A stretch of DNA of 29,486 nucleotides from Candidatus Aenigmatarchaeota archaeon (GTDB lineage Archaea; Aenigmatarchaeota; Aenigmatarchaeia; Aenigmatarchaeales; JAHLMR01). Location of the stretch: positions 1 through 29,486 of the forward strand of contig JAHLMR010000007.1 of the NCBI GenBank assembly GCA_018920255.1, written 5' to 3'. Below are positions 534 through 20,259 of the stretch, piece by piece. Position numbers and translations under genes: made by a program. Position 1 is the stretch's first letter. Every line of letters begins with the position of its first letter. The notes beneath the pieces were generated by a model that was not told where the DNA came from, did no database searches, and saw only the letters and a program-made list of their open reading frames with translations.

Positions 534-647
534 TATAAATAATTTAATTTTATTTATATTTAAAACTTGAAAAATAAAATAAATTTTTTATTGATATGTA
601 ATAAGTTTCTAAATTTGTGAATTTAAAATTGGTGTCGGGGGCGGGGA

Positions 648-758
648 TTTCTCTGCAACTTCTTCGAAGCTTCTTTTTCAAAAAAAGAAGCTTCAGCAAG
701 AAAAACTGTCTTTCTTGATGCAACTTCTTTTTTAAAGAAGTTGCAAAGAAGGTTCTTC
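648..758 (-). other. 111-nt hairpin-array intron in T-loop of tRNA-Met (59/60)
   Basis: The insert splits the T-loop after TTCAAA. Plus-strand hairpins: AAAGAAG/CTTCTTT (745-761, overlapping the exon edge), an 11-bp stem 720-744, a 7-bp stem 697-717, and a 13-bp stem 666-694. A relaxed BHB can be drawn with TTC/GAG as central helix and 5' bulge AA^G. The tract 649-776, including the T-stem 5' half and variable loop, is identical over 128 nt to 20090-20217 in tRNA-Lys. Confidence 0.82.
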
Positions 759-780
759 TTTGAACCCGCGACCTTCAGAT

Positions 781-816
781 ATCTCATTGATTTATTCTCG
801 AAACTCATAAATCTAT
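781..816 (-). other. 36-nt canonical 37/38 intron of tRNA-Met
   Basis: A textbook archaeal bulge-helix-bulge: outer helix TCAGA/TCTGA, central helix CTCA/TGAG, 5' bulge TA^A, 3' bulge AT^A, inner helix GATTTAT/ATAAATC. Splicing restores the anticodon loop CTCATAA. Position 37/38 is the commonest intron site in archaeal tRNAs. Confidence 0.9.
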
Positions 817-833
817 TATGAGTCTGACGCTCT

Positions 834-848
834 TTCCTGCAATAATGT
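834..848 (-). other. 15-nt intron in D-loop of tRNA-Met (20/21)
   Basis: The interrupted D-arm folds as a very compact bulge-helix-bulge: outer helix GCTC/GAGC, central 4-bp helix CCTG/CAGG, 5' bulge GTA cut as GT^A, 3' bulge AAA cut as AA^A, and an inner mini-hairpin CA-TTAT-TG. Cutting at the standard place in each bulge joins GT to A and gives the normal loop AGCCTGGTA. The pairing is read directly; excision is inference. Confidence 0.8.
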
Positions 849-892
849 ACCAGGCTGAGCCACCCCGACTTTAAAAAAATAATAAAAATTAG

Positions 893-901
893 AATTTATA
901 A
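893..901 (-). promoter_or_regulatory. Probable TATA box for tRNA-Met
   Basis: An AT-only TTATAAATT-type motif is centred about 28 bases upstream of the mature tRNA 5' end, the usual archaeal box A distance. It overlaps the stop codon of the Lon-like gene. Based on position and composition only. Confidence 0.4.
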
Positions 902-1615
902 ATTAAAATATTTAAGTGCATCATATATATTATTCACTGCAATTACTTGTATACCTTCTATTACAATATCTTTAATATTTTTCTTTTCATATCTTTTTTC
1001 ACAAATTTCATAACCATTTTGATTTATACATTTTTCAACTGGTGTATAAATATCTTGTTTAAAATTTTCTTCTGGAATTAGAAATATACTAACTCCTTTA
1101 CTTTTTGCTGCTTTAATTTTTTCTAAAATTCCTCCAACTTCTCCTATACTTCCATCTTTTTCTATTGTTCCGGTAATTATAATGCTTTGATTAATAGATT
1201 TGTTTTTTAATGCTGCTATTGTTGCTATTGTAATTGCTGCACCTGCAGAAGATCCTCCTACTAATGTAGCATTATCTGTTTTTATTGTATAGATAATATC
1301 AATATTATTAGTATTTATTCTAGTAATTTCTTCTGCTATTTTTTTAGCTGTTTGAATAGAATCCTGAGTATCAACCCAAAATTTTATTTTATCTATATTA
1401 GTAAGAATTTTTCCAGAACCCGGTTGTATCTCAACTATTAGTTCAGTTAGCACACCTTTATTGTTTTCATCTACTGCAGGTAAATACATTTTTACATATG
1501 AAGAATTTATTTGGGTTTCCTCATAAGAAATTTGATTTTGAAAATAAAAAAATAATAAAAAATATGTTAAAAATATGAAAATTAATATTAAAATAAAATA
1601 TTTAGTATTTTTCAT
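896..1615 (-). CDS. Membrane-anchored Lon-like (S16) serine protease
   Basis: 239 residues. An N-terminal membrane anchor (about residues 7-26) is followed by an S16 Lon-type proteolytic domain. The catalytic serine lies in GGSSAGAA (about Ser123) and the catalytic lysine in GGILEKIKAA (about Lys166), giving the Ser-Lys dyad of the family; the GTIEKDGSIGEVGG segment between is also typical. There is no AAA+ domain, so this is an archaeal stand-alone Lon-like protease rather than LonB; it probably acts at the outer face of the membrane, possibly on envelope proteins. The frame is open back to 1684, but that extension overlaps the small zinc-ribbon gene at 1641-1793 and lacks a membrane-anchor look, so the ATG at 1615 is preferred. 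Confidence 0.85.
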   Translation of the reverse strand: MKNTKYFILILIFIFLTYFLLFFYFQNQISYEETQINSSYVKMYLPAVDENNKGVLTELIVEIQPGSGKILTNIDKIKFWVDTQDSIQTAKKIAEEITRINTNNIDIIYTIKTDNATLVGGSSAGAAITIATIAALKNKSINQSIIITGTIEKDGSIGEVGGILEKIKAAKSKGVSIFLIPEENFKQDIYTPVEKCINQNGYEICEKRYEKKNIKDIVIEGIQVIAVNNIYDALKYFNL

Positions 1616-1640
1616 AATCTTATAAATAATTTGATAGTAT

Positions 1641-1793
1641 TTATTTTTTTGCTTTACCGAGAATTCTAAAAACTTTTGTTCCACATGTAGGACAAACTCC
1701 TTGAATAGCCTTTAATCCATTTTTCATTTCAACTTCTCTTGCATCCTTTATTTCAACTGTTTTTTTACATTTCATACATCTACCTTCTGTCAT
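1641..1793 (-). CDS. Small zinc-ribbon protein (DUF5679-like)
   Basis: A 50-residue protein with two CxxC pairs (CMKC at residues 6-9 and CPTC at 34-37), a treble of charged residues between them (EIKDAREVEMKNG) and a basic tail. This is the pattern of the DUF5679 family of tiny archaeal zinc ribbons. A strong Shine-Dalgarno sequence GAGGTG lies 6 bases upstream of the ATG. It is the first gene ahead of the Lon-like protease on the same strand and diverges from the pilin gene. Function unknown; nucleic-acid or protein binding is plausible. Confidence 0.8.
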   Translation of the reverse strand: MTEGRCMKCKKTVEIKDAREVEMKNGLKAIQGVCPTCGTKVFRILGKAKK

Positions 1794-1862
1794 AAATAAC
1801 ACCTCTTTAAATAATATTTAAATAATAATAAAAATATTAAGTTATTAAAGATTGTGGTTTAT

Positions 1863-2285
1863 ATGAGAGGTATATCACCTTTAATAGCTTCAATTTTACT
1901 TATAGCCTTAACAATGACAATTGCTGTAATTCTTGCAAATTGGGCTACGGGAATAACACAACAAACATTAGCTACTACTCAAAGATGTATTGGTGCAAGA
2001 CTAGAATATACAACAGCAGATTATCCCAAATGGAATCCTTCTGATGGAAGCATAGTAGCAGTTATAACATCTTATGGGGCAACAATGGGAAAATTTAAGT
2101 TTGAAATACTTTTAACAAACGATACAATTTTAGTTTTTCCTGATAAAACTAATCTTATATTAGCATCTGGAAGTACTGGTACAGTTATGAGCGATCCAAT
2201 ATTAGTTTCAAGAGATAATATTAGAATGGTAAGAATAACTTCAAATTGTACAGATGTAAAAACAACATGGGAATCATTAAAATAA
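1863..2285 (+). CDS. Type IV pilin-like protein
   Basis: About 140 residues. The N-terminus MRGISPLIAS, followed by a hydrophobic helix ILLIALTMTIAVILANW, is the class III signal and assembly helix typical of archaeal pilins and archaellin-like proteins (DUF1628-type). The remaining domain is beta-rich and carries two cysteines (in TQRCIG and TSNCTD) that could form a disulfide, as in surface pilins. An upstream GTG at 1854 is in frame, but the ATG at 1863 places the charged RG directly before the helix and is preferred. Single gene between divergent and convergent neighbours. Confidence 0.75.
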   Translation: MRGISPLIASILLIALTMTIAVILANWATGITQQTLATTQRCIGARLEYTTADYPKWNPSDGSIVAVITSYGATMGKFKFEILLTNDTILVFPDKTNLILASGSTGTVMSDPILVSRDNIRMVRITSNCTDVKTTWESLK

Positions 2286-2286
2286 A

Positions 2287-2934
2287 TTACCAGCATTTTA
2301 TATAATTATTTAAAATTTCTATATTTACTGGCTCATAAAAAACATATTTTTCATCTAATATATATGCTGGAATTGAAGTAATATTATAATTTGTGAGAAG
2401 GATATCTATACTTGTAAGATTTAAATCTGTTGGTAAAGTTATGTATACTGTTTTAATCCCACATCTTTGTTTAAAATCAAAAAGCAATACATCCAAAATT
2501 TTTTGTTTTTCTGTTTTGTTATAATATGAATAAAAATAAATAACAGTTGAAAGTTTATCAGCACATAAATTTTTAAGTTTTAATGTATTTTTTAAAAGCT
2601 GAAGATCTAATAATGCATAATTTTGTTTTTCTAATAAAATTTCATTTGTTAATTTATTTGCAGTATCATAAAGTTCAATTTTTTTTCCAAAAAAATATAT
2701 TTTATCAGCTAAAATCCTATTTTGTTCTATTAAATAATCGCATTTTTCAGAAGTAGAAGCATTTATATACTCTTCAAAAAATTTTGCATCATTCCATAAA
2801 ATATTTATGTATAAATTTTCATTTTTTATTTCATTTAATCTTATAACTTCAGAGAGGTATCCAATCAAAAAGAAGGTAAAAATTATTATAAAAAAAATTA
2901 TTAATGTTTTTCCTATTAGGTTTTTTAGTTTCAT
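2287..2934 (-). CDS. Membrane-anchored protein with thioredoxin-like C-terminus, unknown function
   Basis: About 215 residues. One N-terminal membrane helix (about residues 8-25) is followed by an extracytoplasmic helical region with many lysines and a C-terminal part whose NYNITSIPAYILDEKYVF segment resembles the cis-proline region of thioredoxin folds (strand, S-I-P, strand, then a glycine-poor hairpin). No CxxC redox motif is visible, so a redox role is doubtful. The ATG at 2934 follows a GTGGT sequence and comes directly after the stop of the upstream glycosyltransferase, suggesting translational coupling. No firm family assignment. Confidence 0.6.
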   Translation of the reverse strand: MKLKNLIGKTLIIFFIIIFTFFLIGYLSEVIRLNEIKNENLYINILWNDAKFFEEYINASTSEKCDYLIEQNRILADKIYFFGKKIELYDTANKLTNEILLEKQNYALLDLQLLKNTLKLKNLCADKLSTVIYFYSYYNKTEKQKILDVLLFDFKQRCGIKTVYITLPTDLNLTSIDILLTNYNITSIPAYILDEKYVFYEPVNIEILNNYIKCW

Positions 2935-2936
2935 AA

Positions 2937-4160
2937 CTACCACGAATATGATTTTGTTAAAAACTTTATTGTTGAATGAATATAATTTAATGGTGTTAAG
3001 AATATATAAATTGTTAAAAATATTATTAAAATGAAAAAATTATCTTTAATTTTTATTTTTAAATTTATTTTATGAAAGCTTAACCATATCCATAAAAAAG
3101 ATGAAAATATAGAAAAAATACTTAAAATTATAAAAATATTAGGCAAAAGTAAGCTATCAAAATTCAGAATATTTAATAAGTTTACACCATAAAAAGATGA
3201 TGAAAATATAATAAGAATATCATAAAGCCTTGTTAAAATTAAATAAACTGTTAATATAAGCCCCAAAATTGTGAAAAAATATGCAGATATAAATAATGGA
3301 ATAACAAAACAACCAAATCCACTATATTTAGTATTAAATAACATATCTATATGTTTTATTGTTGTTTGCATTCCACCAATATTCCATCTTATTCTTTGAT
3401 GCCACCATTGTTTAAATGTTTCAGGAACAGAAGTTAAAATTTTTATTGGGACTGACATTTTTATTTTATATCCATGTCTTAAAATTCTCCATGCAATTTC
3501 TATATCTTCAGTCATATTATTTTTATCAAAACCACCTATTTCTTTTAATACTTTTTTTCTATAAAGAGCAAATGGTCCTGGAGTTACATATATTGCATTT
3601 AAATTTTCTAAAATTTTTCTACTTAGAATATATAAGATATATTCAATACTTTGGAGTTTTTCTATTATATTTTTTGGCCTATCAACAAAAATAGAAACTG
3701 TTACTGCAGCAACATCTTTATCTTCAAAAAAACCAATAGATTTTAGTAATGCATCTTTTGAAGGATATGTATCAGCATCTATAGTAACAATTATCTCTCC
3801 CTTAGCTTTTTTTAATCCATAATTTAATGCATCTGCTTTTCCTCCATTTTTCTTAGAAAAAACTTTAATTCCTTTTATTTTTTTTAAAATTTCTAAAGAA
3901 TTATCTGTTGAACCATCATTTATAACTATAATTTCAAATTTTTTAGGATATTTTAATTTTTTAACATATTCTATAGTTTTTTTAATACATTTTTCTTTAT
4001 TATAAACAGGTATTAAAATACTTACAGAAGGGAAACTTTTTGGCTTAGAATATGAAACTATATTTTTTCTTGAAATATAAAATAGATTAAAGAAAAAAAT
4101 CATGAAAAAAATACTTGAAATAATTAAAAACAAAAATATCCAATCTAATAAATACATCAT
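2937..4160 (-). CDS. Membrane glycosyltransferase, family GT2
   Basis: 407 residues. One N-terminal membrane helix, a cytoplasmic GT-A domain (about 43-270) and three or more C-terminal helices (about 285-400). Hallmarks: SILIPVYN at 48-54, NDGST at 81-85, GGKADALN at 106-113, the metal-binding DAD at 128-130, the TED at 217-219 (catalytic acid region) and QRIRW at 255-259. The QxxRW motif places it with processive-type enzymes such as poly-N-acetylglucosamine, cellulose or hyaluronan synthases, or archaeal dolichol-sugar synthases. It may add or build surface sugars; its position next to the S-layer gene suggests glycan decoration of the envelope. Sugar donor unknown. Confidence 0.88.
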   Translation of the reverse strand: MMYLLDWIFLFLIISSIFFMIFFFNLFYISRKNIVSYSKPKSFPSVSILIPVYNKEKCIKKTIEYVKKLKYPKKFEIIVINDGSTDNSLEILKKIKGIKVFSKKNGGKADALNYGLKKAKGEIIVTIDADTYPSKDALLKSIGFFEDKDVAAVTVSIFVDRPKNIIEKLQSIEYILYILSRKILENLNAIYVTPGPFALYRKKVLKEIGGFDKNNMTEDIEIAWRILRHGYKIKMSVPIKILTSVPETFKQWWHQRIRWNIGGMQTTIKHIDMLFNTKYSGFGCFVIPLFISAYFFTILGLILTVYLILTRLYDILIIFSSSFYGVNLLNILNFDSLLLPNIFIILSIFSIFSSFLWIWLSFHKINLKIKIKDNFFILIIFLTIYIFLTPLNYIHSTIKFLTKSYSW

Positions 4161-4175
4161 AATTAATACCTTAAG

Positions 4176-4213
4176 AAAAAATTAAATAAAAACCTGATGG
4201 AAAAACCATCAGG
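4176..4213 (-). terminator. Hairpin plus T-tract terminator of S-layer gene
   Basis: An 8-bp perfect stem CCTGATGG/CCATCAGG (4193-4200 and 4206-4213) with a 5-base loop. Read on the minus strand it starts 12 bases past the S-layer stop and is followed by TTTTTATTT, the form of an intrinsic terminator. Confidence 0.75.
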
Positions 4214-4225
4214 CTAATTTAAATT

Positions 4226-6364
4226 CTATTGTACAACTACTGTTTGGAAGTTTTCTCCAGTTACTTTTGCTGAACTGGATGTTATGCTTGCAAGTTTTGT
4301 TCCATCTTGTACTACACGTGCTGCAAGCATTGTATCTTGTGCGCGTGTTCCAGCAATAATTAAAGCTGTCTTTCCTGATGTAAATGCATCTTTAACAACT
4401 TTAATTATTCCAAAGTTTTCTGCTGGCCAGTTTTCACATGTGTAATCAAACTTTCCTGCTGTTGCTAAATCTGCAACTAAGCTGTTTACACATGGACCTC
4501 CTACTAATACTAAATCATAGCCAGATTTATCACTTGCTGAAACTTCGCTGTCAAGTTTAACTACATTTGATGTTATTGGTACTGCTTCTTTATAAGTTGT
4601 TCCTCCAGCAGCAGATGTTTGTATTCCTAATCCAAATTTTCCTTTTACTTGTTGTGCTGGATATTTTATTACAACTTTATTGTTTCCAGCATTTGTTTTT
4701 ACATTAACTAATGTTATTCCAAAATCTGATACGATGTCATGTTCCCATGTTCCAACTTCCGCTGGATTGCCTGCTGTATTATCAAATTTTACATCTCCTG
4801 TTTCTGCATCATCACTAGTTCCTAATCTTATTTTTTTGTCAGCGCTATTATAGTTATAATATGCTTCCCAAGCATTATTTGTTTTTGTACCGAATAGTTT
4901 AGGATGTGTGTTATTTGTATAATTTATTGTATCTGTTGTTTGATCATATGTTAAGCTAGCAATGGTAACCCCTGATGCTCCAGATGCATCTTTCCATTCT
5001 GTTGCATTTACATATCTTGAAGATTTTGAATCATAGTATACAACCATTATATGCTTGTCTGATGTTGTTTTATTAATTAACATATATACATCTTTTTGAT
5101 AACCTTCAACACCATTTATGTTAAATATTGGAACATCTGAGGATAATTTTATTGCAGCTACTTCACTTGATGGTACTAAAATACCATATCCAGATGATGC
5201 TGTACTATTATATACTGTAAATCCAGAAACCGGTGAAATTGTTATTGTTGCATATTTGTTTACTGTAAATCCTTCAAATACAAATCCTGTATAATCTTCA
5301 GGGGTCATTAATTTTTCTCCTGATTTTAGATAAAATGTATTTCCATCTTTATCAGTACCACTGAATTTTACTCCTATGTAATCACTTGTACCCCATTTAT
5401 TTGTATTAGCAAAGCTTATATCCCATTGCCATGATTGATCATTTTCAGTGTATAAATCTCCAGAATTTATTGTTTTTTCAATATCTGACCCAACCGCTGC
5501 AAAAATCTCTGCTTTTGCTACTCCATATACTTGAAATTCATATGCATTTTGTAAATATATTTTTAGATTTCCATTATCAAATTCTTCTGTTGAGCCTTTT
5601 GTTATAATCTTTTGATCAACTAGTGATCCTCCTTTATAAACTGCTATTTCAGCCTGTGTTGAACTTCCCATTATAAATTTTATTTCATAATCTCCAACTG
5701 TTAAGCTTCTTGTTGCATCAATTGTTCCTTTAGTTCCTTTTAATACAGTTATTGAACTACCACCGATTCTTGTTAACAAATAGTCTTTACCTAATATTTT
5801 TATTGAAAGAGGTTTTGTTGCGCTTAATCCACTTAAATCAACTGTTTGAGTTGATATTATTCTATATTCAAATCCGCCTAAATCTTTTGCAACAACTGTT
5901 CCATTATAGATATCTTTATTATTATCTAATGTCATACCTGTACCTAATACTATTTTTTCTTGTAGTGTTGTTTTGTTTCCACCAAAGTTTATATCAAATT
6001 CTTTTAAAGATGGTATTGAAACACTACTAAATTGTGTTGTTCCAAATGCATTATCTATATCTCCGCCAAATTCTACTTCTCTTTCTGGTCCATCAACTTT
6101 AGCTAATCCTGTTCCTGCAACAGATTTTTCTATTGTTGCTTTTCCTGCTAACATTACTGCAACATTTATTGCTCCTGCTACATCTTCTGCTTTTGCATTT
6201 GCTCCAACTACGAATAATGGAAAGCTTACTGTACTATCTGTTACTGATACTAAATCACTGATTTTATTTACTTGAGTTATAGTTGCTGCCATTACAGGTG
6301 CTGCTACTGTTAATCCTGTCATTAAAGCAGATCCTGCTATTGCAGCTAATTTTCTAAATTGCAT
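4226..6364 (-). CDS. S-layer surface protein
   Basis: 712 residues with a clear signal peptide (MQFRKLAAIAGSALMTGLTVAAPVMAA, cleavage after about residue 27). The mature protein is acidic, rich in Thr, Ser, Gly and Val, and beta-strand-like throughout, with no catalytic motif. The N-terminal segment after the signal (TQVNKISDLVSV...FPLFVVGANAKAEDVAGAINVAVMLAG) and the C-terminal part with VLVGGPCVNSLVADLA and GTRAQDTMLAARVVQ match the conserved ends of the archaeal S-layer family (S_layer_N/S_layer_C, as in Methanococcales and several DPANN). It would form the cell-surface lattice. A strong GGAGG lies 10 bases upstream of the ATG. It has its own promoter, structured leader and terminator, consistent with high expression. 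Only two cysteines, both near the C-terminus, are seen. Confidence 0.9.
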   Translation of the reverse strand: MQFRKLAAIAGSALMTGLTVAAPVMAATITQVNKISDLVSVTDSTVSFPLFVVGANAKAEDVAGAINVAVMLAGKATIEKSVAGTGLAKVDGPEREVEFGGDIDNAFGTTQFSSVSIPSLKEFDINFGGNKTTLQEKIVLGTGMTLDNNKDIYNGTVVAKDLGGFEYRIISTQTVDLSGLSATKPLSIKILGKDYLLTRIGGSSITVLKGTKGTIDATRSLTVGDYEIKFIMGSSTQAEIAVYKGGSLVDQKIITKGSTEEFDNGNLKIYLQNAYEFQVYGVAKAEIFAAVGSDIEKTINSGDLYTENDQSWQWDISFANTNKWGTSDYIGVKFSGTDKDGNTFYLKSGEKLMTPEDYTGFVFEGFTVNKYATITISPVSGFTVYNSTASSGYGILVPSSEVAAIKLSSDVPIFNINGVEGYQKDVYMLINKTTSDKHIMVVYYDSKSSRYVNATEWKDASGASGVTIASLTYDQTTDTINYTNNTHPKLFGTKTNNAWEAYYNYNSADKKIRLGTSDDAETGDVKFDNTAGNPAEVGTWEHDIVSDFGITLVNVKTNAGNNKVVIKYPAQQVKGKFGLGIQTSAAGGTTYKEAVPITSNVVKLDSEVSASDKSGYDLVLVGGPCVNSLVADLATAGKFDYTCENWPAENFGIIKVVKDAFTSGKTALIIAGTRAQDTMLAARVVQDGTKLASITSSSAKVTGENFQTVVVQ

Positions 6365-6386
6365 TTATTTCATTCCTCCTTTTTAT

Positions 6387-6440
6387 TTTTTGTGCGGTGA
6401 ATGCACAAAAATATAGAGTGCTAACTTTTTGTAGCACTCT
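6387..6440 (-). promoter_or_regulatory. S-layer mRNA leader with two hairpins
   Basis: Two perfect 9-bp hairpins follow each other in the leader: AGAGTGCTA/TAGCACTCT (6415-6423 with 6432-6440) and TTTTTGTGC/GCACAAAAA (6387-6395 with 6403-6411). If transcription starts about 25 bases from the TATA-like element at 6461-6468, the first stem sits at the very 5' end of the mRNA. A stabilising or regulatory 5' stem-loop pair is the likely role (inference). Confidence 0.6.
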
Positions 6441-6460
6441 TTTCATATTAAAATATTATG

Positions 6461-6468
6461 ATATAAGG
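6461..6468 (-). promoter_or_regulatory. Probable TATA box for S-layer gene
   Basis: CCTTATAT on the minus strand, about 25 bases before the first leader hairpin. Of several AT-rich stretches in this 253-base gap it is the one with a C-rich (CCCC) element just upstream. Not proven. Confidence 0.35.
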
Positions 6469-6617
6469 GGTTATTAAATTTTCTTTAAACTGTTTCTATA
6501 TTGTTTTTTATATTAAAAATATTATTTTTTAAATTAAAAATAAATTATATAAATGCTTTAAAAAGTTTATAATGGTGTTTTATAACTTATTTTTTAATAA
6601 AAAGTAATTTAAATATA

Positions 6618-7505
6618 TTATTTTTTTGAAAATTCTTTAACAACATAAATCCTGTTAGAACGTCCAATTCTTTCTAATCTTATTATTCCTCTCTCACTTA
6701 AATTCTTTAAAACCTTAGAAACTTTTGCTTTAGAAAATTTACTTTCTCTAACGATTACTTTTTGATTAACACCATCTCCATGTTTTAATATTAATTCCAT
6801 TATTAATTTTTCATCTGATTTTAAAATTGGGAGAAATATTTGTACTCCAAGTTTTTTTCTAAACCTAAAAATTAAAATAATTATTAAAATTGAAACAGTA
6901 GCTATTATAATTGTAATTAATGGAATTTCTGTTTTTTCTTTTATTAAAGATTCATAAAATATTTGGAATGATAAAAGTTCACCTAATGGTAAATTGTTTT
7001 TTTGCCAATAAACAAAAATTTTTCTTCCATCACTTGCAATATTTCCATATGTTGGAATTATTGATTCTCTATCAGAAATTATTGCTGTTCCTTCAGGTAA
7101 ATATACTTTATATAAAAATGAATTTATTGTATCATAAACAATGAATTCTTTTTTAAATGAAAAAATATTATTTTCTTTTTTTATATTTGAGGAAATAAAA
7201 TTAATTTTTAAACTTCTGTTTGATTCAGATGCTAATTTTGTATCACAAATCAATAAATTTCTATCAGCTGATTTAGATAATTCACAAGATGCAGGAAAAT
7301 TAGAAGAATAAGAAAAGTTTTTAATATCGAATAAAAATGAAATTTTTACTTGGGATGTTTCATTTGGTTCTATTGTCATTATAATATTATCAGTTATCAA
7401 ATTATCATAAATTATTGATTCTTCACCAAAATAAATTATTTTAGAAAATGATGCCTGAGAAAATAAAAAAATAAATAATAGTATAGTAATTAAATATCTA
7501 TTCAT
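6618..7505 (-). CDS. Membrane-anchored winged-helix regulator with extracytoplasmic domain
   Basis: 295 residues. Signal peptide/anchor (1-21), an extracytoplasmic beta-rich domain (about 22-195), one transmembrane helix (about 195-214, IPLITIIIATVSILIIILIF), a basic border (RFRKK) and a cytoplasmic winged-helix domain (about 228-295: KSDEKLIMELILKHGDG, then SKAKVSKVLKNLSERGIIRLERIGRSN). This architecture is known in archaeal membrane HTH proteins (DUF7343/DUF7345-like) and suggests a one-component sensor that couples an outside signal to transcription. Its start overlaps the end of the upstream gene by 4 bases, so the two are probably co-translated. It lies upstream of the S-layer gene, a possible target (inference). 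Confidence 0.8.
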   Translation of the reverse strand: MNRYLITILLFIFLFSQASFSKIIYFGEESIIYDNLITDNIIMTIEPNETSQVKISFLFDIKNFSYSSNFPASCELSKSADRNLLICDTKLASESNRSLKINFISSNIKKENNIFSFKKEFIVYDTINSFLYKVYLPEGTAIISDRESIIPTYGNIASDGRKIFVYWQKNNLPLGELLSFQIFYESLIKEKTEIPLITIIIATVSILIIILIFRFRKKLGVQIFLPILKSDEKLIMELILKHGDGVNQKVIVRESKFSKAKVSKVLKNLSERGIIRLERIGRSNRIYVVKEFSKK

Positions 7506-7948: not shown

Positions 7949-7991
7949 TAAAATCCCTTAGTTAATATTTTAATTTTTTATTTTAAAAAGA

Positions 7992-8001: not shown

Positions 8002-8031
8002 TAAATAATATGCCCCAGTAGCTCAGTTGGT

Positions 8032-8044
8032 ACAAATGCAAAAA
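8032..8044 (+). other. 13-nt intron in D-loop of tRNA-Thr (20/21)
   Basis: Same site as the tRNA-Met D-loop insert. Pairing: outer GCTC/GAGC, central TTG/CAA (a fourth G-A pair is a mismatch), 5' bulge GT^A, inner CA..TG, 3' bulge AA^A. Joining gives GCTCAGTTGGTAGAGC, a normal D-arm. The common pattern ACA...TGCA...AA with the tRNA-Met insert suggests a shared origin. Confidence 0.75.
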
Positions 8045-8083
8045 AGAGCGGCTGCCTCGTAAGCAGCAGGTCGGGAGTTCAAA

Positions 8084-8107
8084 GCAGCTTTTAAAAAATG
8101 AGTAAAA
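8084..8107 (+). other. 24-nt intron in T-loop of tRNA-Thr (59/60)
   Basis: Splits the T-loop after TTCAAA, the same site as the larger inserts. A 4-bp central helix TTCA/TGAG and 5' bulge AA^G can be drawn; the 3' side loop is 6 rather than 3 bases (TAAAA^A), a relaxed form. A small AAAG-cag-CTTT hairpin begins at the same place as the first hairpin of the long versions. Confidence 0.72.
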
Positions 8108-8138
8108 ACTCCCCTGGGGCTCCAAAGAGGTGCTTAAA

Positions 8139-8447: not shown

Positions 8448-8457
8448 AGGTGAAATT

Positions 8458-8716: not shown

Positions 8717-8874
8717 GCGCCATTGGTCTAGTGGTAGGATAGGAGCTTCCCAAGCTCTTGGCCTGGGTTCAAAGAACCTTCTTTCTTAAAGAAAGAAGGT
8801 TCATCAAGAAAGACAAATTTTCTTGATGCAACTTCTTTTTTAAAGAAGTTGCGGGATTCCCAGATGGCGCACCA
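8717..8874 (+). tRNA. tRNA-Gly(CCC) with T-loop intron
   Basis: Acceptor GCGCCAT/ATGGCGC (8717-8723, 8864-8870), A871, encoded CCA 8872-8874. D-arm GTCT-AGTGGTA-GGAT, anticodon stem GGAGC/GCTCT, loop TTCCCAA with anticodon CCC, T-stem CTGGG/CCCAG. The insert 8774-8857 splits the T-loop; removal gives TTCAAAT. The gene sits one base after a stop codon and 3 bases before an in-frame ATG of the next gene. Confidence 0.93.
8774..8857 (+). other. 84-nt hairpin-array intron in T-loop of tRNA-Gly(CCC) (59/60)
   Basis: Three consecutive perfect hairpins: 12-bp GAACCTTCTTTC stem (8774-8802), 9-bp ATCAAGAAA stem (8803-8827), 11-bp GCAACTTCTTT stem (8828-8852). The last two are also in the tRNA-Met and tRNA-Lys inserts, but in reversed order, and the 11-bp module has loop TTT where those read AAA in the tRNA sense, as if flipped. 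Junction pairing TTC/GGG plus bulges AA^G and AT^T is a relaxed BHB. Confidence 0.8.
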
Positions 8875-14312: not shown

Positions 14313-15106
14313 TATAGCTCAACCATACTTACTGTAAGACAATCTCTTATTCCTAACGCAAGTCCTAAAATTAGAATGATAAATTTTAAAAAATTTTTAA
14401 AGTTTTGATTATCTGCATATTTATCTATTAGTAAAAGAGATAACCAAACAACTATTAGCTTAAGTGGAAACATTATCCATGCCCCAAAATTTGAAATAAG
14501 AAAAGAAGGTAAAACATGCTGTTCATAGTATCCAAAATAGGTAAGTGCGGTATAAGTTGAAGATGCATCAAAAAGGTGTGCGAAAATTATTGATGCATTT
14601 ATTTTTGATAATAAATTTAACTTTAAAAGAAAAAGAATAAAAATCAAACAAAACATTGAAAATAAAAAAACATAATAAAGACTTAGTGGATTTGTAATTT
14701 TTGTAATTGATAGATTGTAAAAACAAAATATTAAACCTGTTCCAAATAAAATTTTATAGTATTTTATTTTAAATTTTTTTTCAGTTAAAATGGAAATTAA
14801 AAATGTTATAAAAACTAATATAAAAATTATAAAATATATTGGTGGACTACACCACCACCAAGCATTATTTGAATATATACCAGCCCCATGATCTTTTAAT
14901 GCTCTTGTCCAACCACCATATATTATAAATGGAATAAAACCTATGAAAAAATATTTATCTATTTTTATTTTTAATTTATTTATTACTTTATAAATTCCTA
15001 GTGCAAAAATACAGAGAATTAAACCATATAATAAAGTTGCTTCTAAAGTATAGTAGTGACATAGAGGATTAATAAATTTTTCATATATATAAGAATTTAT
15101 ATCCAT
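14312..15106 (-). CDS. DUF63 family membrane protein
   Basis: 264 residues with about eight membrane helices. The conserved archaeal DUF63 signature is visible: YGGWTRALKDHGAG followed by WWWCSPPIYF, and later HLFDASSTYTALTYFGYYEQHVLP. The family is nearly universal in Euryarchaeota and many DPANN, function unknown; the D-A-S and E-H residues inside membrane segments suggest a membrane enzyme (inference). Coupled to truD by a TAATG overlap. Confidence 0.88.
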   Translation of the reverse strand: MDINSYIYEKFINPLCHYYTLEATLLYGLILCIFALGIYKVINKLKIKIDKYFFIGFIPFIIYGGWTRALKDHGAGIYSNNAWWWCSPPIYFIIFILVFITFLISILTEKKFKIKYYKILFGTGLIFCFYNLSITKITNPLSLYYVFLFSMFCLIFILFLLKLNLLSKINASIIFAHLFDASSTYTALTYFGYYEQHVLPSFLISNFGAWIMFPLKLIVVWLSLLLIDKYADNQNFKNFLKFIILILGLALGIRDCLTVSMVEL

Positions 15107-15111
15107 TTAAA

Positions 15112-15450
15112 TCACAAAAGTTTTAAATTTCCTGTTATTTCATCTATTTTTTCATCTTCATCTGGTCCTAATCCTAATGCTGTTATTGTACCTGGTTCTA
15201 TTTGAGTTAATCCTTTATCTATTATAATTTCTGATGGTATTTTTTTATTTTCTGCAAGTTTTTTTAAAATTAAAATTTCGTTTTCAGAGCTAACCTTTAC
15301 AACAACTTTTTTCATTCCTTCATTTATCCACTTCTCTCTTTTTTTCTTATCTGATTTAAGAAAAGCAGCTAAACTTGCGTGTGCTGCTTGACTACATAAC
15401 TTTCCTTTTCCCATTTTTAAATCTGTTCTTATAACTATCACTTGTTTCAT
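15112..15450 (-). CDS. pth2: Peptidyl-tRNA hydrolase 2
   Basis: 112 residues. Releases tRNA from stalled peptidyl-tRNA. The N-terminus MKQVIVIRTDLKMGKGKLCSQ is the family signature, followed by AAHASLAAF and, near the end, DKGLTQIEPGTITALGLGP, the other conserved block. The frame is open to 15501, but the ATG at 15450 begins at the exact family start and has GTGAT upstream; the longer form overlaps the CDP-alcohol transferase gene. Confidence 0.95.
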   Translation of the reverse strand: MKQVIVIRTDLKMGKGKLCSQAAHASLAAFLKSDKKKREKWINEGMKKVVVKVSSENEILILKKLAENKKIPSEIIIDKGLTQIEPGTITALGLGPDEDEKIDEITGNLKLL

Positions 15451-15455
15451 TTTTA

Positions 15456-16013
15456 TCACAAAAGCTTTTTGATTGCAATATAAAATCTTTCTATAAAGCA
15501 ATAAAAACTTATTATCGTTACTGCTATTGCAGCATAATAAATATAATTAAACAATAATCCAAAAATAAAAATAGTTAATCTTATTCCTCTCCAACTTATT
15601 TTTTCTCCTATATTTGTTTTTAATAAAAATTCTAATACTGCACTCTCATAACTTGAAATTAAAACAAGTGATAAAAGTACAATTCCTAATAAAATATCAA
15701 CATATCCAGTTAATATAATAGAACCGATTAAAAGAGTGTCAGAAATTCTATCTGAAAATCTATCAAAAAAAACTCCAAAGTTTGTTGTACATTTTTTTAT
15801 TTTTGCTAATGAACCATCTAAAATATCAAAAAAACCAGATAATAAAACAAATAATGCTGCTATTTGGAGATTTTTATTTAAAATAAATAAAGAAGCTATT
15901 AACATTAAAACTATACTAAAAAGAGTTATAAATTTTGGAGATATGTTTATTTTTTTTACAATTTTTATAATGACTTTTCTCTCAAAATTTTCTTTTATAT
16001 TTGAAAGCAGCAT
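15456..16013 (-). CDS. CDP-alcohol phosphatidyltransferase (archaeal phospholipid headgroup enzyme)
   Basis: 185 residues with about six membrane helices. The active-site motif DxxDG-x2-A-K-x8-G-x3-D-x3-D is complete: D63, D66-G67, A70-K71, G80, D84, D88 (the usual Arg is Lys). It transfers CDP-archaeol to an alcohol, most likely inositol phosphate (archaetidylinositol phosphate synthase) judging by size and layout; glycerol phosphate is an alternative. CarS, which makes the CDP-archaeol substrate, is encoded 1.2 kb away on the same strand, and Pth2 follows. Confidence 0.85.
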   Translation of the reverse strand: MLLSNIKENFERKVIIKIVKKINISPKFITLFSIVLMLIASLFILNKNLQIAALFVLLSGFFDILDGSLAKIKKCTTNFGVFFDRFSDRISDTLLIGSIILTGYVDILLGIVLLSLVLISSYESAVLEFLLKTNIGEKISWRGIRLTIFIFGLLFNYIYYAAIAVTIISFYCFIERFYIAIKKLL

Positions 16014-16065
16014 AAATTAATTTAAACCGTATGAATTTAAAAAGATAAAAAATATATGAGAAAAT

Positions 16066-16566
16066 ATGATAGATTTATCCTCAATTTTTGCTTTAATAAC
16101 ATCATTTTCTATTAGTTTAGGGTATTTAGGTGCATTTATTTTAGGTTTTTTTAGTAGTTTCACTCTTTTTATACCATCTCCAACATTTATAGGAGTTTTT
16201 ACTCTTGCTGCTTTAGGAACCTATAATCCGCTTTTATTAGGAATTTTTGGTGGATTAGGTGCAACAATAGGAGAATTAATAGGGTTTGTAGTTGGTGTTG
16301 GGAGTAAAAAAATTTTAATAAAAAAATATGAAAAGGAATTAATTGATATTGAAAGAAAATTTCAAAAATATGGTGGGTTTATAATAATTTTTATTTTTTC
16401 TGCAACCCCATTACCATTTGATTTGGTTGGTATTTTTTGCGGAAGTATAGGATATCCATTTAAAAAATTCTTTTTAGCAACATTTTTTGGAAAATTAATA
16501 AAATATATATTTATTGCTTATGCTGGTTTTTATGGTATGCATTGGTTAGTTTCATATCTATTTTAA
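16066..16566 (+). CDS. DedA/SNARE-associated (VTT) membrane protein
   Basis: 166 residues. Membrane segments near 12-50, 55-85, 105-130 and 140-165. The VTT-domain pattern shows in FIPSPTF, the glycine-rich GGLGATIGELIGFVVGVG, and the cytoplasmic FQKYGGFIIIFIFSATPLPFDLVGIFCG followed by FFLATFFGKLIKY. DedA proteins are implicated in lipid scrambling and membrane homeostasis (polyprenyl phosphate and phospholipid flipping in bacteria). It diverges from the CDP-alcohol transferase and converges with PHP, overlapping it by 9 bases. Confidence 0.85.
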   Translation: MIDLSSIFALITSFSISLGYLGAFILGFFSSFTLFIPSPTFIGVFTLAALGTYNPLLLGIFGGLGATIGELIGFVVGVGSKKILIKKYEKELIDIERKFQKYGGFIIIFIFSATPLPFDLVGIFCGSIGYPFKKFFLATFFGKLIKYIFIAYAGFYGMHWLVSYLF

Positions 16567-17256
16567 TAATTCTTCTTTTCTTTTTTTAGAAAAAAACCAG
16601 TTCACAGATCTCCATATTTTTTTATAATAAACTTCTATTAAAATTTTTCTTTTAGCTTCTCTTCCAAAAACCTTTACTTTTCCATTTTTTATTTCTGAAA
16701 TTGGATCATTATTACAAATTATACCAGCCGCTCCTAAGGTAAGAATAGAATGAGAATCGCTTCCAGCTACCATTGGAATAGAATATTTAATTGCAAGTTC
16801 TTTTGCTGAATTGTTTTGAAATTTTAAAGCAGAACATGCATTAAGTACTTCTATTGCATCAGCAAATATTGCTTTTTTCATTAAACATTCTCTTAAAATA
16901 AATTTTGCAAACGGATGTGGGGCAATTGCTATTCCACCTTGAGAATGTATTTCATCTATAGAATCCTTAAGAGACATATAAGGTTTTATTTCTTTATGTA
17001 AACCTATTCCTAATAAATCACCAGATGCTGTTTTTATTTCTTCACCTATTATTACATTAAAATTTGGATATTTTTTCTTTGCATAATTTTTTGCTTTTAA
17101 TGCCCCCTTAATTGTATTATGGTCTGTAATTGCTATTCCGTTTAATCCTTTTTTTACTGCGGCATCTACAATTTCTTCAGGCGTGTTTAAAGCATCATAG
17201 CCCCAAAAAGCCACTTTACTATAAATTGTATGAACATGTAAGTCGTATTTTTTCAA
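16558..17256 (-). CDS. PHP-domain phosphoesterase
   Basis: 232 residues. Metal-binding motifs of the PHP superfamily are in order: DLHVHTIYS (5-13), ITDHNTIKGA (about 43-52), GEEI, IAPHPF (about 111-116) and GSDSH (about 165-169). Likely a metal-dependent phosphatase or nuclease of the YciV/PHP type; substrate unknown. The start is directly after the end of the upstream CarS gene (4 bases), so the two form an operon. Confidence 0.88.
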   Translation of the reverse strand: MKKYDLHVHTIYSKVAFWGYDALNTPEEIVDAAVKKGLNGIAITDHNTIKGALKAKNYAKKKYPNFNVIIGEEIKTASGDLLGIGLHKEIKPYMSLKDSIDEIHSQGGIAIAPHPFAKFILRECLMKKAIFADAIEVLNACSALKFQNNSAKELAIKYSIPMVAGSDSHSILTLGAAGIICNNDPISEIKNGKVKVFGREAKRKILIEVYYKKIWRSVNWFFSKKRKEELLK

Positions 17257-17260
17257 AATA

Positions 17261-17800
17261 TCACCAGGGAACTGATTTCAGTTTAATTAAATAGCTTATA
17301 ATATTTGTTATTCTATGAACTATTATTGTAAAAATTATCATAAATAAAAACATAATTACTGTAATTTTAAAAAATAATAAGCCTATCATTGTTGCAGATA
17401 AAATAAAATTTGTTTGATCTAAAATTGGTGCATCAGCGCCTCTTTCAAGACTAATTCTTCTTTTTATAAAGCTTCCAATTAAATCTCCTGATAAAGCACT
17501 AAAAGACAATATTAATGCATTTAACGGGTTTATGTAAGGAAGTTCAAAACCATAATAAATTGCTATTGAATTAAATTTAGGGTATAAAATCCACAATATT
17601 CCACCATAAAAAATTCCTGCAAGAATTCCTATTATAAATCCCTCTATTGTTTTTCCATCACCAAATATTCTTTTCCCATCACTCCAAGTTTTTTTAAAAT
17701 CTATAGGTACTTTTCCTTTTACTAAAACGGGAAAACCATTAGCAGCATATAATGGAATTAATAACCACAATGCTTTTATTATTTCATATAATATATCCAA
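17261..17800 (-). CDS. carS: CDP-archaeol synthase
   Basis: 179 residues. Activates 2,3-di-O-geranylgeranylglyceryl phosphate with CTP, giving CDP-archaeol, the branch point to all archaeal phospholipids. Signature blocks: YAANGFPVLVKGKVPID, SDGKRIFGDGKTIEGF, and the C-terminal SGDLIGSFIKRR...PILDQ. Five membrane helices. The start is a TTG at 17800 preceded by AGGTG with a 5-base spacer; the frame stays open to 17881 but that part lies in the tRNA-Gly gene and its intron. Confidence 0.92.
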   Translation of the reverse strand: MDILYEIIKALWLLIPLYAANGFPVLVKGKVPIDFKKTWSDGKRIFGDGKTIEGFIIGILAGIFYGGILWILYPKFNSIAIYYGFELPYINPLNALILSFSALSGDLIGSFIKRRISLERGADAPILDQTNFILSATMIGLLFFKITVIMFLFMIIFTIIVHRITNIISYLIKLKSVPW

Positions 17801-17814
17801 ATAAACACCTAATT

Positions 17815-17998
17815 TGGTGCGCCAGCTGGGAATCCCGCAACTTCTTCGAAGCTTCTTTTTCAAAAAAAGAAGCTTCAGCAAGAAAAACTTTTTAAGTTTT
17901 CTTGATGAAACTTCTTTTTCTAAAAGAAGTTTCGAAGCTTCTTCGAACCCAGGTCAGCAGCTTGGAAGGCTGCGGTCCTACCACTAGACTACTGGCGC
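17815..17998 (-). tRNA. tRNA-Gly(TCC) with T-loop intron, overlapping Sec61-beta gene
   Basis: Acceptor GCGCCAG/CTGGCGC (17998-17992, 17825-17819), A17818, encoded CCA 17817-17815. D-arm GTCT-AGTGGTA-GGAC, anticodon stem GCAGC/GCTGC, loop CTTCCAA with TCC, T-stem CTGGG/CCCAG. The insert 17832-17941 splits the T-loop; removal gives TTCGAAT. The first 15 bases are also the last codons and TAG stop of the Sec61-beta gene. Confidence 0.93.
17832..17941 (-). other. 110-nt hairpin-array intron in T-loop of tRNA-Gly(TCC) (59/60)
   Basis: The cleanest T-loop BHB here: outer CTGGG/CCCAG, central TTCG/CGGG (two G-T pairs), 5' bulge AA^G, 3' bulge AT^T, restoring TTCGAAT. Inside are a TTCGAAG/CTTCGAA stem touching the exon, a 12-bp GAAACTTCTTTT stem, a CAAGAAAACTT stem and the same 13-bp GAAGCTTCTTTTT stem (848-876 of this kb) as in tRNA-Met and tRNA-Lys. 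Confidence 0.83.
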
Positions 17999-18157
17999 TT
18001 TTGTTAAAAGCGTTAGTATAATTTCAAGAGCAGCAAAACCTGTACAAATTAATACAACATGCTCTGGTTTTAATTTTATTAAACTTTTATCTTCTTCGTA
18101 ATATCTTACAAGACCCCCCATACTTGCTGGGGTTTGTATTTTTAATTTTTCTGCCAT
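17984..18157 (-). CDS. secG: Preprotein translocase Sec61-beta subunit
   Basis: 57 residues: cytoplasmic N-terminus (KIQTPASMGGLVRYYEED), the family block with GGLVRYY and IKLKPEHV, and one membrane helix (about 33-52). It is part of the SecYEbeta protein channel. The ATG at 18157 is chosen over TTG at 18166. Oddity: the final codons and TAG stop overlap the first 15 bases of tRNA-Gly(TCC) on the same strand. Confidence 0.9.
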   Translation of the reverse strand: MAEKLKIQTPASMGGLVRYYEEDKSLIKLKPEHVVLICTGFAALEIILTLLTKAPVV

Positions 18158-18199
18158 ATTAATCAATTTAATTTTATATTTTTTTAACTTTTTAAATAT

Positions 18200-18985
18200 T
18201 TATTTTATTATAAAATAATCTACAAGTTTTCCTTTCTCATCTCTTAAATATACAATATCATAATTGTTATTCCAAATAGGAAATCCGGAATTCCAATAAA
18301 AAATATTTTTCGTATTATATCCATAACCAGTATATAAAATTAAAGAAGAATTTGATTCTAAAGAATGATTAAAAATAAAAGTATTCCATGCTGAATCATG
18401 AATTTTCCATTTTGAAATATTACAAGAAAAATTACATAAGTTTTTTATTTCAACATATTCATCATTTAATGAATTTTTTTCAATAGCATTTATTTTTAAA
18501 ATTTTTATACAATTTTTACATGGATTTTCTGATTTTTCGCATAAACCTATATTTTCTTTTATACAATCTTTAAATGCATTTTCAAAATCAAAAGTATATT
18601 TAAAATTACTATTTAATATATAAGGTAAAGCAAGTCCGTTTTTAATCATTTCTTTATTTACATTTGTATTATTAAGAAAAATAATTCTTAATAACCTTCC
18701 ATATTTATCTTTATTATCTTTGATTTTTTCTAATAAAACATATTTATTAAGAACTAAATATTTCAATTCTTCCTTTGCTTTTTCATAGTATTTATCTCCG
18801 TTTTCTGGAGCATTAATTCCTAAAAGTCTTACTTTTTCTCCTGTTTCAATTTCTATTGTATCACCATCGATAACATTAATAACAAAGGCTATTTGTTTTT
18901 CCTTATTAAATGTAAAAAATATAACTATACTTAAAATAGAAATAAAAATAATTAATAAAATAATACGCTCTCTTGTAAATTTCAA
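18200..18985 (-). CDS. Secreted or membrane-anchored nuclease, SNase domain plus lamin-tail domain
   Basis: 261 residues. N-terminal membrane helix (about 10-26), then a staphylococcal-nuclease domain: VIDGDTIEI, KVRLLGINAPE, KDKYGRLLRIIF, with the conserved Asp, Arg and Glu of the active site visible. A C-terminal lamin-tail (LTD) domain follows (NDEYVEIKNLCNFSCNISKWKIHD ... GKLVDYF). Extracellular nucleases with LTD are often DNA-degrading. The start is TTG at 18985, preceded by GAGGT, just past the stop of the upstream small gene. Outside DNA could be a nucleotide source (inference). Confidence 0.85.
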   Translation of the reverse strand: MKFTRERIILLIIFISILSIVIFFTFNKEKQIAFVINVIDGDTIEIETGEKVRLLGINAPENGDKYYEKAKEELKYLVLNKYVLLEKIKDNKDKYGRLLRIIFLNNTNVNKEMIKNGLALPYILNSNFKYTFDFENAFKDCIKENIGLCEKSENPCKNCIKILKINAIEKNSLNDEYVEIKNLCNFSCNISKWKIHDSAWNTFIFNHSLESNSSLILYTGYGYNTKNIFYWNSGFPIWNNNYDIVYLRDEKGKLVDYFIIK

Positions 18986-18989
18986 AAAA

Positions 18990-19184
18990 TCAAACCTCAG
19001 CTGCAACTGATATCCAAAACATTCCTGCAACCAAAATTAATACAAAAGCAATTATATATGCTATTGATACTGATAATAAATCTGTTCCTAATTCAGAAGG
19101 ATTTATATTTCCTGCTATTAAAATTCCTAAAAAAAGACATATTCCACCAATTATCCAAAAACTTATTTCTTTTGCTGTTACCAT
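18990..19184 (-). CDS. Small two-helix membrane protein
   Basis: 64 residues: helices about 8-25 and 37-60, with short polar ends (MVTAKEIS, NINPSELGTD). No family recognised. It lies immediately upstream of the nuclease gene, whose ribosome-binding site sits in its last codons, so the two are in one operon. Confidence 0.6.
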   Translation of the reverse strand: MVTAKEISFWIIGGICLFLGILIAGNINPSELGTDLLSVSIAYIIAFVLILVAGMFWISVAAEV

Positions 19185-19227
19185 AAAAATATTTTAATGT
19201 ATTTAATATTTAAAACTTTCTAAATTT

Positions 19228-20061
19228 TCATAACAGAATTTTTTTAAAAATTTCAATTGTATCAACTGGCTCATATTTTAAATCTTTAATGGTTTTTTGT
19301 ATGTTATAATTTCTATCTTCAAAAAATGCAGAAATTGTTTCTTGGGTTATTGGAGGTTCTATATTAATAAAATTACTTAAATTCTTTATTAGAGCAAATA
19401 TTTTTTTAATAAGCTCTATATCCTTTTTTGTAAAATAAATGATTTTATATTTATCTTTTAATGTATTAGCAAGATTTTGAAATAAAAATGAATTTTTATC
19501 TGCTACATAATATATCTCAGAGTTTCCATGAAATATTGAGAGATATATTGCTTCTACTACTTTTTTAAGATAAACCAAATGAAGGTTTAAATCTTTAATT
19601 ATAGGTAAAATTTTAAATTTTTTTATAAGTTTAAGTCTATTTTCATCATATACTGGTGCAATCCTTAATATTGGTATTTTAATGTTTTTTTGAAAATCAA
19701 AGGCTATTTTTTCTGCTTCTTTTTTACTCTTGGAATATAATGTTTCTGTTTTTTCTGTTACTGCAACAGAACTAATATAAATAACTCTTTCAATTCCTTC
19801 CTCTTCAGCAACCTTTAAAATATTATAAGTACCATTAACATTTATATTTTTTATTTTTTTGTAGTCTCCACTATATTTTTTTAATGCTGCTAAATGAATT
19901 ACAACATCAGAATTTTTTATTGTTTTTTTAATGTGTGATGTATTAGTAATATCATAACCTAAGGATTTTGAAAACATTATAACTTTATGACCTTTATTAT
20001 TAAGATATTTTACAACTTCTTTTCCTATATAACCTGTTGCTCCAGTAACAAAAACCCTCAT
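19228..20061 (-). CDS. NAD-dependent epimerase/dehydratase (extended SDR)
   Basis: 277 residues. Rossmann motif VTGATGYIG at 5-13, catalytic Tyr-Lys pair in Y109-S-K-S-K113, ISS at 96-98 and the LAA motif near 58-60. It probably acts on a nucleotide-sugar or other sugar substrate for envelope glycans; the exact reaction cannot be read. It starts 12 bases after the end of the tRNA-Lys gene. Confidence 0.85.
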   Translation of the reverse strand: MRVFVTGATGYIGKEVVKYLNNKGHKVIMFSKSLGYDITNTSHIKKTIKNSDVVIHLAALKKYSGDYKKIKNINVNGTYNILKVAEEEGIERVIYISSVAVTEKTETLYSKSKKEAEKIAFDFQKNIKIPILRIAPVYDENRLKLIKKFKILPIIKDLNLHLVYLKKVVEAIYLSIFHGNSEIYYVADKNSFLFQNLANTLKDKYKIIYFTKKDIELIKKIFALIKNLSNFINIEPPITQETISAFFEDRNYNIQKTIKDLKYEPVDTIEIFKKILL

Positions 20062-20072
20062 AAAAATCTCTT

Positions 20073-20259
20073 TGGTGGGCCCAACGGGATTCTCTGCAAC
20101 TTCTTCGAAGCTTCTTTTTCAAAAAAAGAAGCTTCAGCAAGAAAAACTGTCTTTCTTGATGCAACTTCTTTTTTAAAGAAGTTGCAAAGAAGGTTCTTCT
20201 TTGAACCCGCGACCTTCCGCTTAAGAGGCGGTTGCTCTACCAGACTGAGCTATGGACCC
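20073..20259 (-). tRNA. tRNA-Lys(CTT) with T-loop intron
   Basis: Acceptor GGGTCCA/TGGGCCC (one G-T pair), A20076, encoded CCA 20075-20073. D-arm GCTC-AGTCTGGTA-GAGC, anticodon stem CCGC/GCGG with an A27-A43 mismatch, loop CTCTTAA with CTT, T-stem GCGGG/CCCGT. The insert 20090-20199 splits the T-loop; removal gives TTCAAAT. Confidence 0.92.
20090..20199 (-). other. 110-nt hairpin-array intron in T-loop of tRNA-Lys (59/60)
   Basis: Near-copy of the tRNA-Met insert: the 128-nt tract 20090-20217 is identical to 649-776 and extends into exon sequence (variable loop, T-stem 5' half). Junction: central TTC/GAG, bulges AA^G and AA^T. The hairpins match those listed for tRNA-Met, including the 13-bp stem at 20107-20135. 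Confidence 0.83.

Follow-up and report, generated by a model that had tools for sequence, protein, structure and literature searches.

The best case so far for how introns in archaeal tRNA genes are gained and copied comes from the Thermoproteales. According to a 2010 study, as cited in two later articles (PMC4090602, PMC4033280), introns transpose in this order, more than half of the tRNA genes are interrupted in extreme cases, and a two-subunit endonuclease has broad specificity. Position 59/60 is among the listed non-canonical intron positions of archaeal tRNAs (PMC4090602), and the type of endonuclease coevolves with the position of the intron, as in the comparison of the two-subunit enzyme of N. 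equitans with the alpha4 enzyme of the nanoarchaeon Nst1 (reviewed in PMC4033280). Within the Micrarchaeota, ARMAN-2 combines non-canonical introns with an epsilon2 endonuclease (PMC12397907, PMC4033280).

Here we describe a window of 29,486 nucleotides (contig JAHLMR010000007.1), the whole stretch of DNA analysed, from a genome that falls in the Aenigmatarchaeota class, in keeping with the original prediction of a DPANN host. Its tRNA genes hold inserts that are, very probably, relaxed bulge-helix-bulge introns at 59/60, spliced by EndA and RtcB, with bodies that have spread between tRNA genes. This kind of intron is already known in other archaea and parallels intron transposition in the Thermoproteales; its scale in this Aenigmatarchaeota group and the presence of its hairpins in several DPANN phyla appear to be unreported in the literature that we searched. 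As in the Thermoproteales, tRNAs lacking close kinship carry highly similar introns. Unlike that case, the host is a DPANN archaeon, most of the family sits at the single T-loop site 59/60, and the introns are built as arrays of palindromic hairpin modules, with each of three genomes having its own families at the same site. ARMAN-2 is likewise a DPANN lineage with introns at many tRNA positions, but its enzyme is a fused three-unit protein, whereas here there are two separate subunit genes and the introns are hairpin arrays.

Inserts and putative splice sites in the tRNA genes of the window

Each of the five tRNA genes in the window carries an insert in the T-loop directly after TTCRAA, as had been predicted, with lengths of 24 to 112 nt rather than 24 to 111. 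The tRNA-Met(CAT) gene (630-869, minus strand) has three inserts: 112 nt in the T-loop (647-758), consisting of three hairpins plus half-hairpins; 36 nt in the anticodon loop (780-815, boundaries taken from the ARAGORN intron length); and 15 nt in the D-loop (833-847, from the ARAGORN test). In the tRNA-Thr(CGT) gene (8012-8124, plus strand), a 13-nt D-loop insert (8033-8045, also from the ARAGORN test) accompanies a 24-nt T-loop insert without a stable fold (8084-8107). The remaining three genes are tRNA-Gly(CCC) (8717-8874, plus strand), with an 84-nt T-loop intron of three successive hairpins (8774-8857, fold z-score -9.7); tRNA-Gly(TCC) (17815-17998, minus strand), with a 110-nt intron (17832-17941, z-score -6.3); and tRNA-Lys(CTT) (20073-20259, minus strand), also with 110 nt (20090-20199, z-score -4.9).

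ARAGORN reports no tRNA in the window as it stands. With the inserts taken out it finds all five, the Met gene being read as Met(cat) and the Gly and Lys genes as ccc, tcc and ctt; for Thr and Met, the D-loop insert also had to be removed. Apart from partial tRNA hits, an Rfam search of the window yielded nothing but chance similarity to hairpin families. Removal restores a 7-base T-loop in all five genes, provided that the 3' exon of Met begins at C60, directly after TTCAAA; the 8-base loop originally predicted for Met is thus a matter of boundary choice, and the prediction holds for the other four. The Lys gene also has an empty site, in that positions 1-60 and 168-187 of the Lys query lie next to each other in the relative G015, and uninterrupted Lys genes are found in L054-L056 and L061-L062 as well, so the insertion is not a chance feature.

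In the T-loop inserts of three genomes of the order, the last bases before the T-stem read GRR-A-N-Y in 41 of 42 cases, the Thr-CGT insert being the sole exception. Such an end allows U54-U55-C56 to pair with GRR and leaves a bulge of 3 nt, so that a 3-bp UUC:GRR helix with a 3-nt 3' bulge is possible in 41/42. Because the central helix has 3 bp and a fourth pair occurs in a minority (of the 18 introns in this genome that bear the motif, about 7 by our own count), the strict bulge-helix-bulge, with its 4-bp helix and two 3-nt bulges, does not appear to form; the 5' bulge is not strict either, i.e. the motif is relaxed. In position and relaxed ends these inserts resemble known 59/60 introns, from which they differ in their number (19 of 40 tRNA genes) and in the common UUC:GRR exon-intron pairing.

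Splicing enzymes and a proposed mechanism

The genome encodes an RtcB ligase and two adjacent EndA-type splicing endonuclease genes (G000:C11 57145-57666 and 57624-58214). One subunit keeps the catalytic Tyr and His and the other lacks the His, the arrangement of an (alpha-beta)2 heterotetramer. The canonical catalytic Lys is absent from both, with Ala at K156 (M. jannaschii numbering), so the Tyr-His-Lys triad is incomplete; position 156 is Ala, Ser or Thr in every aligned His-bearing EndA of the class. Is the second subunit needed for T-loop introns? Within the order the two go together, much as in the coevolution of endonuclease and intron position: T-loop introns occur, among the tRNAs seen, in the two-EndA genomes (G000, G001, G003, G005, G006, G009), and Lys is intact in the single-EndA genomes of family f3 (G008, G011, G012, G015), where a tRNA model finds 43 tRNAs in G011 and G012 versus 19 in the present genome. 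In the wider class, however, this tie fails, as the single-EndA genomes G031, G040 and G057 hold T-loop inserts, and the second subunit is therefore not strictly needed.

The ends resemble splice sites, the genome has splicing enzymes, relatives show empty sites and the tRNAs can be restored; together these make non-canonical 59/60 introns, as first proposed, the best reading. The model below builds on a sequence motif, enzyme genes and restored tRNAs, from which we infer cutting and joining. In the precursor, the T-stem would be extended by the 3-bp helix between U54-U55-C56 and the GRR that closely precedes the 3' splice site, with A-N-Y left beside it as a 3-nt bulge. The two-subunit endonuclease would cut on the 3' side of A59 and on the 5' side of Y60; the exons would be joined by RtcB to give TTCRAAY. 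The AU-rich, perfect hairpin arrays between the splice sites probably serve to hold two weak sites together. Besides the short helix, the Thr-CGT insert and the missing catalytic Lys, it speaks against the model that the minimum-energy fold of some inserts (e.g. Lys) breaks the T-stem and favours a competing hairpin.

Hairpin families, copying and possible mobility

A small set of palindromic hairpins, strung together in arrays, makes up the inserts, which are near-identical across unrelated tRNAs (98% identity between Lys and Met, 97% between Phe and Arg-CCT). This common hairpin family, copied between genes, was missed by the original prediction. How similar two inserts are shows no relation to how similar the 5' parts of their tRNAs are (Spearman rho 0.005, 120 pairs); insert similarity is 0.42 within a genome versus 0.158 between genomes, a difference reached by 0 of 2000 label shuffles, and sharing an anticodon across genomes brings no gain (0.165). 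Two other genomes of the order (G003, G005) have the same site and ends with insert-body families of their own. Since the ends are conserved across the order and the bodies are genome-specific and common to unrelated tRNAs, the bodies appear to have spread between tRNA genes and to have been homogenised within each genome, probably through gene conversion from intron to intron or through insertion at TTCRAA, a T-loop sequence that is nearly universal. The Phe and Arg-CCT genes both have a GCGCG T-stem, where Arg-CCT is GCGGG in those relatives that were read, which suggests that the whole T-arm was converted at least once. The idea that copying always takes the T-stem along was rejected, since sharing a T-stem does not make pairs clearly more similar overall (0.73 vs 0.68).

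Outside tRNA T-loops, this genome holds only short matches (14-19 nt) to the hairpin modules. Among 84,980 prokaryote species, a hairpin core from the inserts matches 38 loci, nearly all labelled DPANN; many of them lie within tRNA genes or next to them, at different intron sites. For example, a Micrarchaeum (L102) has an Arg-TCT intron at 37/38 that agrees with the Asn T-loop intron of this genome at 69 of 81 aligned positions; one intron family thus occurs at different tRNA positions, as in the Thermoproteales, although this is not seen inside the present genome. Copies of the core also lie outside tRNAs in other DPANN genomes, beside genes that have no common functional theme. It is conceivable, if still doubtful, that the core AACTTCTTT-loop-AAAGAAGTT, with ATCAAG after it, represents a mobile RNA or DNA element that is confined to DPANN, has escaped recognition and moves between sites and between DPANN phyla, with tRNA introns as a safe home; its sites, under the same tentative proposal, would be tRNA introns (D-loop, 37/38, 53/54, 59/60), tRNA 3' trailers and some UTRs. 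We consider it improbable that the hairpins are REP-like palindromic DNA elements that landed in tRNA genes and came to be spliced secondarily, their mobility being due to a Y1 (HUH) transposase recognising a TTGAT-flanked hairpin. One strand of the core does read CTTGAT-NN-hairpin, and the copies outside tRNAs in other DPANN genomes would fit, but this genome has neither a Y1 transposase (PF01797; found in 1 of 15 relatives) nor dispersed copies outside tRNA T-loops, and the orientation relative to the tRNA, counted by eye, looks biased, as fits a role at the RNA level. A viral carrier was also considered and rejected, there being 0 matches in 2.9 million viral contigs.

Extent across the genome and its relatives

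Genome-wide, 19 of the 40 tRNA genes found have a T-loop insert, 20 have an intact T-arm and one has an insert at 53/54. Finding five of five in the window was therefore partly luck (P = 0.018 at a rate of 19/40); the generality implied by the original prediction was overstated, as half of the genes escape the inserts. That prediction had named a lack of inserts in most other tRNA genes as a refutation, and the outcome is half and half. Nor does this genome stand alone in its high rate: in G005, which belongs to a different family of the order, at least 16 such introns are present.

If the inserts were retained, mature tRNAs would have hairpin extensions at the T-loop elbow, akin to expansion segments; the hairpins are indeed very stable and well formed (z-scores of -4.9 to -9.7 for long inserts), but only the ends are kept and the bodies and lengths (12-129 nt) differ freely from gene to gene and from genome to genome, half of the tRNAs lack an insert, relatives have uninterrupted orthologues, and a splicing endonuclease and ligase are encoded, so we judge retention very unlikely. 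Although DPANN archaea do have group I introns (PMC6125680), self-splicing group I or II introns are close to inconceivable: a catalytic core needs far more than 12-129 nt, and Rfam gives no such match at E <= 1 in the window. Nor do we give any real credence to dead tRNA copies or to errors of assembly or binning, for which a 25-contig draft with some contigs ending in tRNA genes might speak, as interrupted genes are the only copies found for several isotypes and G003 and G005 show the same site and ends around different bodies. For Phe, Asn, Cys and Trp, one gene each was found, and these single-copy essential isotypes are interrupted, which makes dead genes very unlikely.

To return to the probable introns at 59/60, a DPANN order in which some members have about half of their tRNAs interrupted at one site, with a homogenised family of its own in each genome and empty sites in relatives, is a setting where gain, copying and loss can be traced directly. 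There is also a practical consequence. As they stand, 0 of 20 interrupted genes in the genome are recognised by ARAGORN; after in-silico removal 20 of 20 are (3 also requiring removal of a D-loop insert), with the correct isotype except for Arg-TCT and Leu-TAG, both of which still hold anticodon introns. In genomes of this kind, about half of the tRNAs thus escape standard tRNA finders, and estimates of how complete a reduced symbiont's genome is, or how dependent on its host, can be distorted as a result. The organism itself is a tiny archaeon.

Interrupted tRNA genes and their in silico restoration

The window is contig C23 of a draft genome of 552 kb (25.7% GC, 25 contigs). ARAGORN recognises none of its five tRNA genes, which were placed by reading both strands and with a purpose-written finder. 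As first noticed from the sequence, all five are interrupted directly after TTCRAA in the T-loop; the inserts measure as follows: tRNA-Met-CAT (630–869, minus strand) by 112 nt, tRNA-Thr-CGT (8012–8124, plus) by 24 nt, tRNA-Gly-CCC (8717–8874, plus) by 84 nt, and tRNA-Gly-TCC (17815–17998, minus) and tRNA-Lys-CTT (20073–20259, minus) by 110 nt each. The Met gene also carries D-loop and anticodon-loop inserts, and Thr-CGT a D-loop insert. These D-loop inserts (window 833–847 and 8033–8045) and that of Thr-GGT (contig C1, 6142–6154) resemble one another (CA...TGCA..AAAA) and, on this likeness, may represent a second small intron family. The window also holds a single ORF with matches to the small and large archaeal primase subunits, i.e. 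a fused primase (24382–25668, minus).

Genome-wide, we located 40 tRNA genes, counting as one the Ile-TAT copies in which contigs C13 (3–108) and C25 (4–109) both terminate, an assembly overlap. Nineteen carry the T-loop insert, 20 have an intact T-arm, and Leu-GAG (C18, 42429–42547) is interrupted at 53/54 instead of 59/60. The striking density of interruption thus holds up, although the window itself was a fortunate sample: five of five has a probability of 0.018 at a rate of 19/40. The finder located no tRNA-Asp gene in this 94.6% complete genome; the gene could be absent, or could carry an interruption or split that the finder does not detect.

None of the 20 interrupted genes is recognised by ARAGORN unspliced; 17 are recognised after in silico removal of the T-arm insert, and the other three (Met, Asn and Thr-CGT) once the D-loop insert is also removed. 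Arg-TCT and Leu-TAG are then assigned a wrong anticodon because their anticodon-loop introns are still present. Empty sites also occur: tRNA-Lys of the relative G015 is uninterrupted, with query positions 1–60 and 168–187 adjoining, and the tRNA-Lys T-loops of loci L054–L056 and L061–L062 are intact. By these sequence comparisons, the T-loop inserts behave as introns, which would be excised and the exons ligated.

Predicted splice sites and splicing enzymes

Among 42 T-loop inserts (19 from this genome, and 7 and 16 from G003 and G005, of other families in the order), 41 end in GRR-A-N-Y immediately 5' of the T-stem 3' strand, so that U54-U55-C56 can pair with GRR, leaving a 3-nt bulge. Cuts after A59 and before Y60 would give TTCRAAY, the T-loop form in intact tRNAs of this genome. 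The predicted junction is a relaxed bulge-helix-bulge, with three pairs in place of four. Of 18 inserts found among loci fetched from other genomes, 11 share this end; T-loop inserts that have it include those of L106 (a Pacearchaeote), L100 (a Nanoarchaeote) and L112 (a Diapherotrites archaeon).

Position 59/60 is among the described archaeal tRNA intron positions, and similar introns in different tRNAs have been described in Thermoproteales (PMC4090602, PMC4033280). No paper on T-loop introns in DPANN or Aenigmatarchaeota turned up in the literature searched; since subscription journals mostly lay outside that search, this is weak evidence of absence.

The genome encodes RtcB ligase and two adjacent EndA-type endonuclease genes (C11, 57145–57666 and 57624–58214). 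T-loop introns are present in the tRNAs read from the order's two-EndA genomes (G000, G001, G003, G005, G006 and G009) and Lys is intact in the single-EndA genomes of family f3 (G008, G011, G012 and G015), a comparison based on few tRNAs per genome except in G000, G003 and G005, and on drafts of varying completeness. The tRNA model RF00005 counts 43 in G011 and G012 versus 19 in the present genome (G000). A second, weak EndA match is present in G002, also of family f3. The link between two EndA genes and T-loop introns is suggestive only, because G031, G040 and G057, outside the order, have one detected EndA gene yet carry T-loop inserts. In every aligned catalytic (His-bearing) EndA of the class (C11 57145–58214; loci L226–L254), Ala, Ser or Thr replaces the canonical catalytic lysine (K156 in M. 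jannaschii), and an inserted Lys-rich loop separates the catalytic Tyr from the catalytic His.

Turnover of the insert bodies

The long inserts are perfect hairpins in tandem, drawn from a small set (GAACCTTCTTT, GCAACTTCTTT, GAAACTTCTTT, GAAGCTTCTTT and partners). Their fold z-scores range from -4.9 to -9.7, whereas the 24-nt insert of Thr shows no stable fold (+0.5). The hairpins probably help bring the splice sites together. Elsewhere in the genome, the modules have only short matches of 14–19 nt. Inserts of unrelated tRNAs reach 92–98% identity, and insert similarity is unrelated to that of the 5' tRNA parts (rho 0.005). In G003 and G005 the T-loop introns occupy this site too, but their bodies differ. 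Insert similarity is 0.42 within a genome, 0.158 between genomes and 0.165 between genomes for the same anticodon, so the inserts cluster by genome and not by anticodon. The difference between the within-genome and between-genome values was reached in 0 of 2000 label shuffles; because introns within one genome are related, this figure is descriptive and should not be read as a strict probability. Thus the insertion site and the ends are conserved, whereas the bodies turn over and become homogenised in each genome, with copies presumably spreading by conversion or transposition.

The hairpin core in other genomes

A pattern from the inserts, CTTGATNNAACTTCTTTN{1,8}AAAGAAGTT, matched 38 loci among 84,980 prokaryote species, none bacterial; the reversed control, run on 156 genomes of the class, matched nothing. 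Record titles name Micrarchaeota, Nanoarchaeota, Pacearchaeota, Aenigmatarchaeota and Diapherotrites; two loci come from a single bin with the title Marsarchaeota, and four from a bin called simply 'archaeon', which was matched to the class of the present genome. With an objective finder, 17/41 pattern sites lay no more than about 420 nt from a tRNA gene, versus 12/228 random windows drawn from these loci (Fisher P about 7e-9). Judged by eye, some 24 of the 38 loci are in or adjoin tRNAs, as anticodon-loop introns or in the D-loop, T-loop, 53/54 or 3' trailers. For example, a 37/38 intron of Micrarchaeum Arg-TCT aligns with our Asn T-loop intron at 69/81 positions, well past the 29-nt pattern used for selection. 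A mobile hairpin element specific to DPANN, with tRNA introns as its main refuge, is a tentative reading that we regard as rather doubtful.

In Micrarchaeota, arrays of this core lie directly downstream of tRNA-Ala genes (L098, L104, L127). The core is also present just upstream of protein gene starts (L100, L132) and, in L118, close to a LAGLIDADG-like ORF that may sit within a group I intron.
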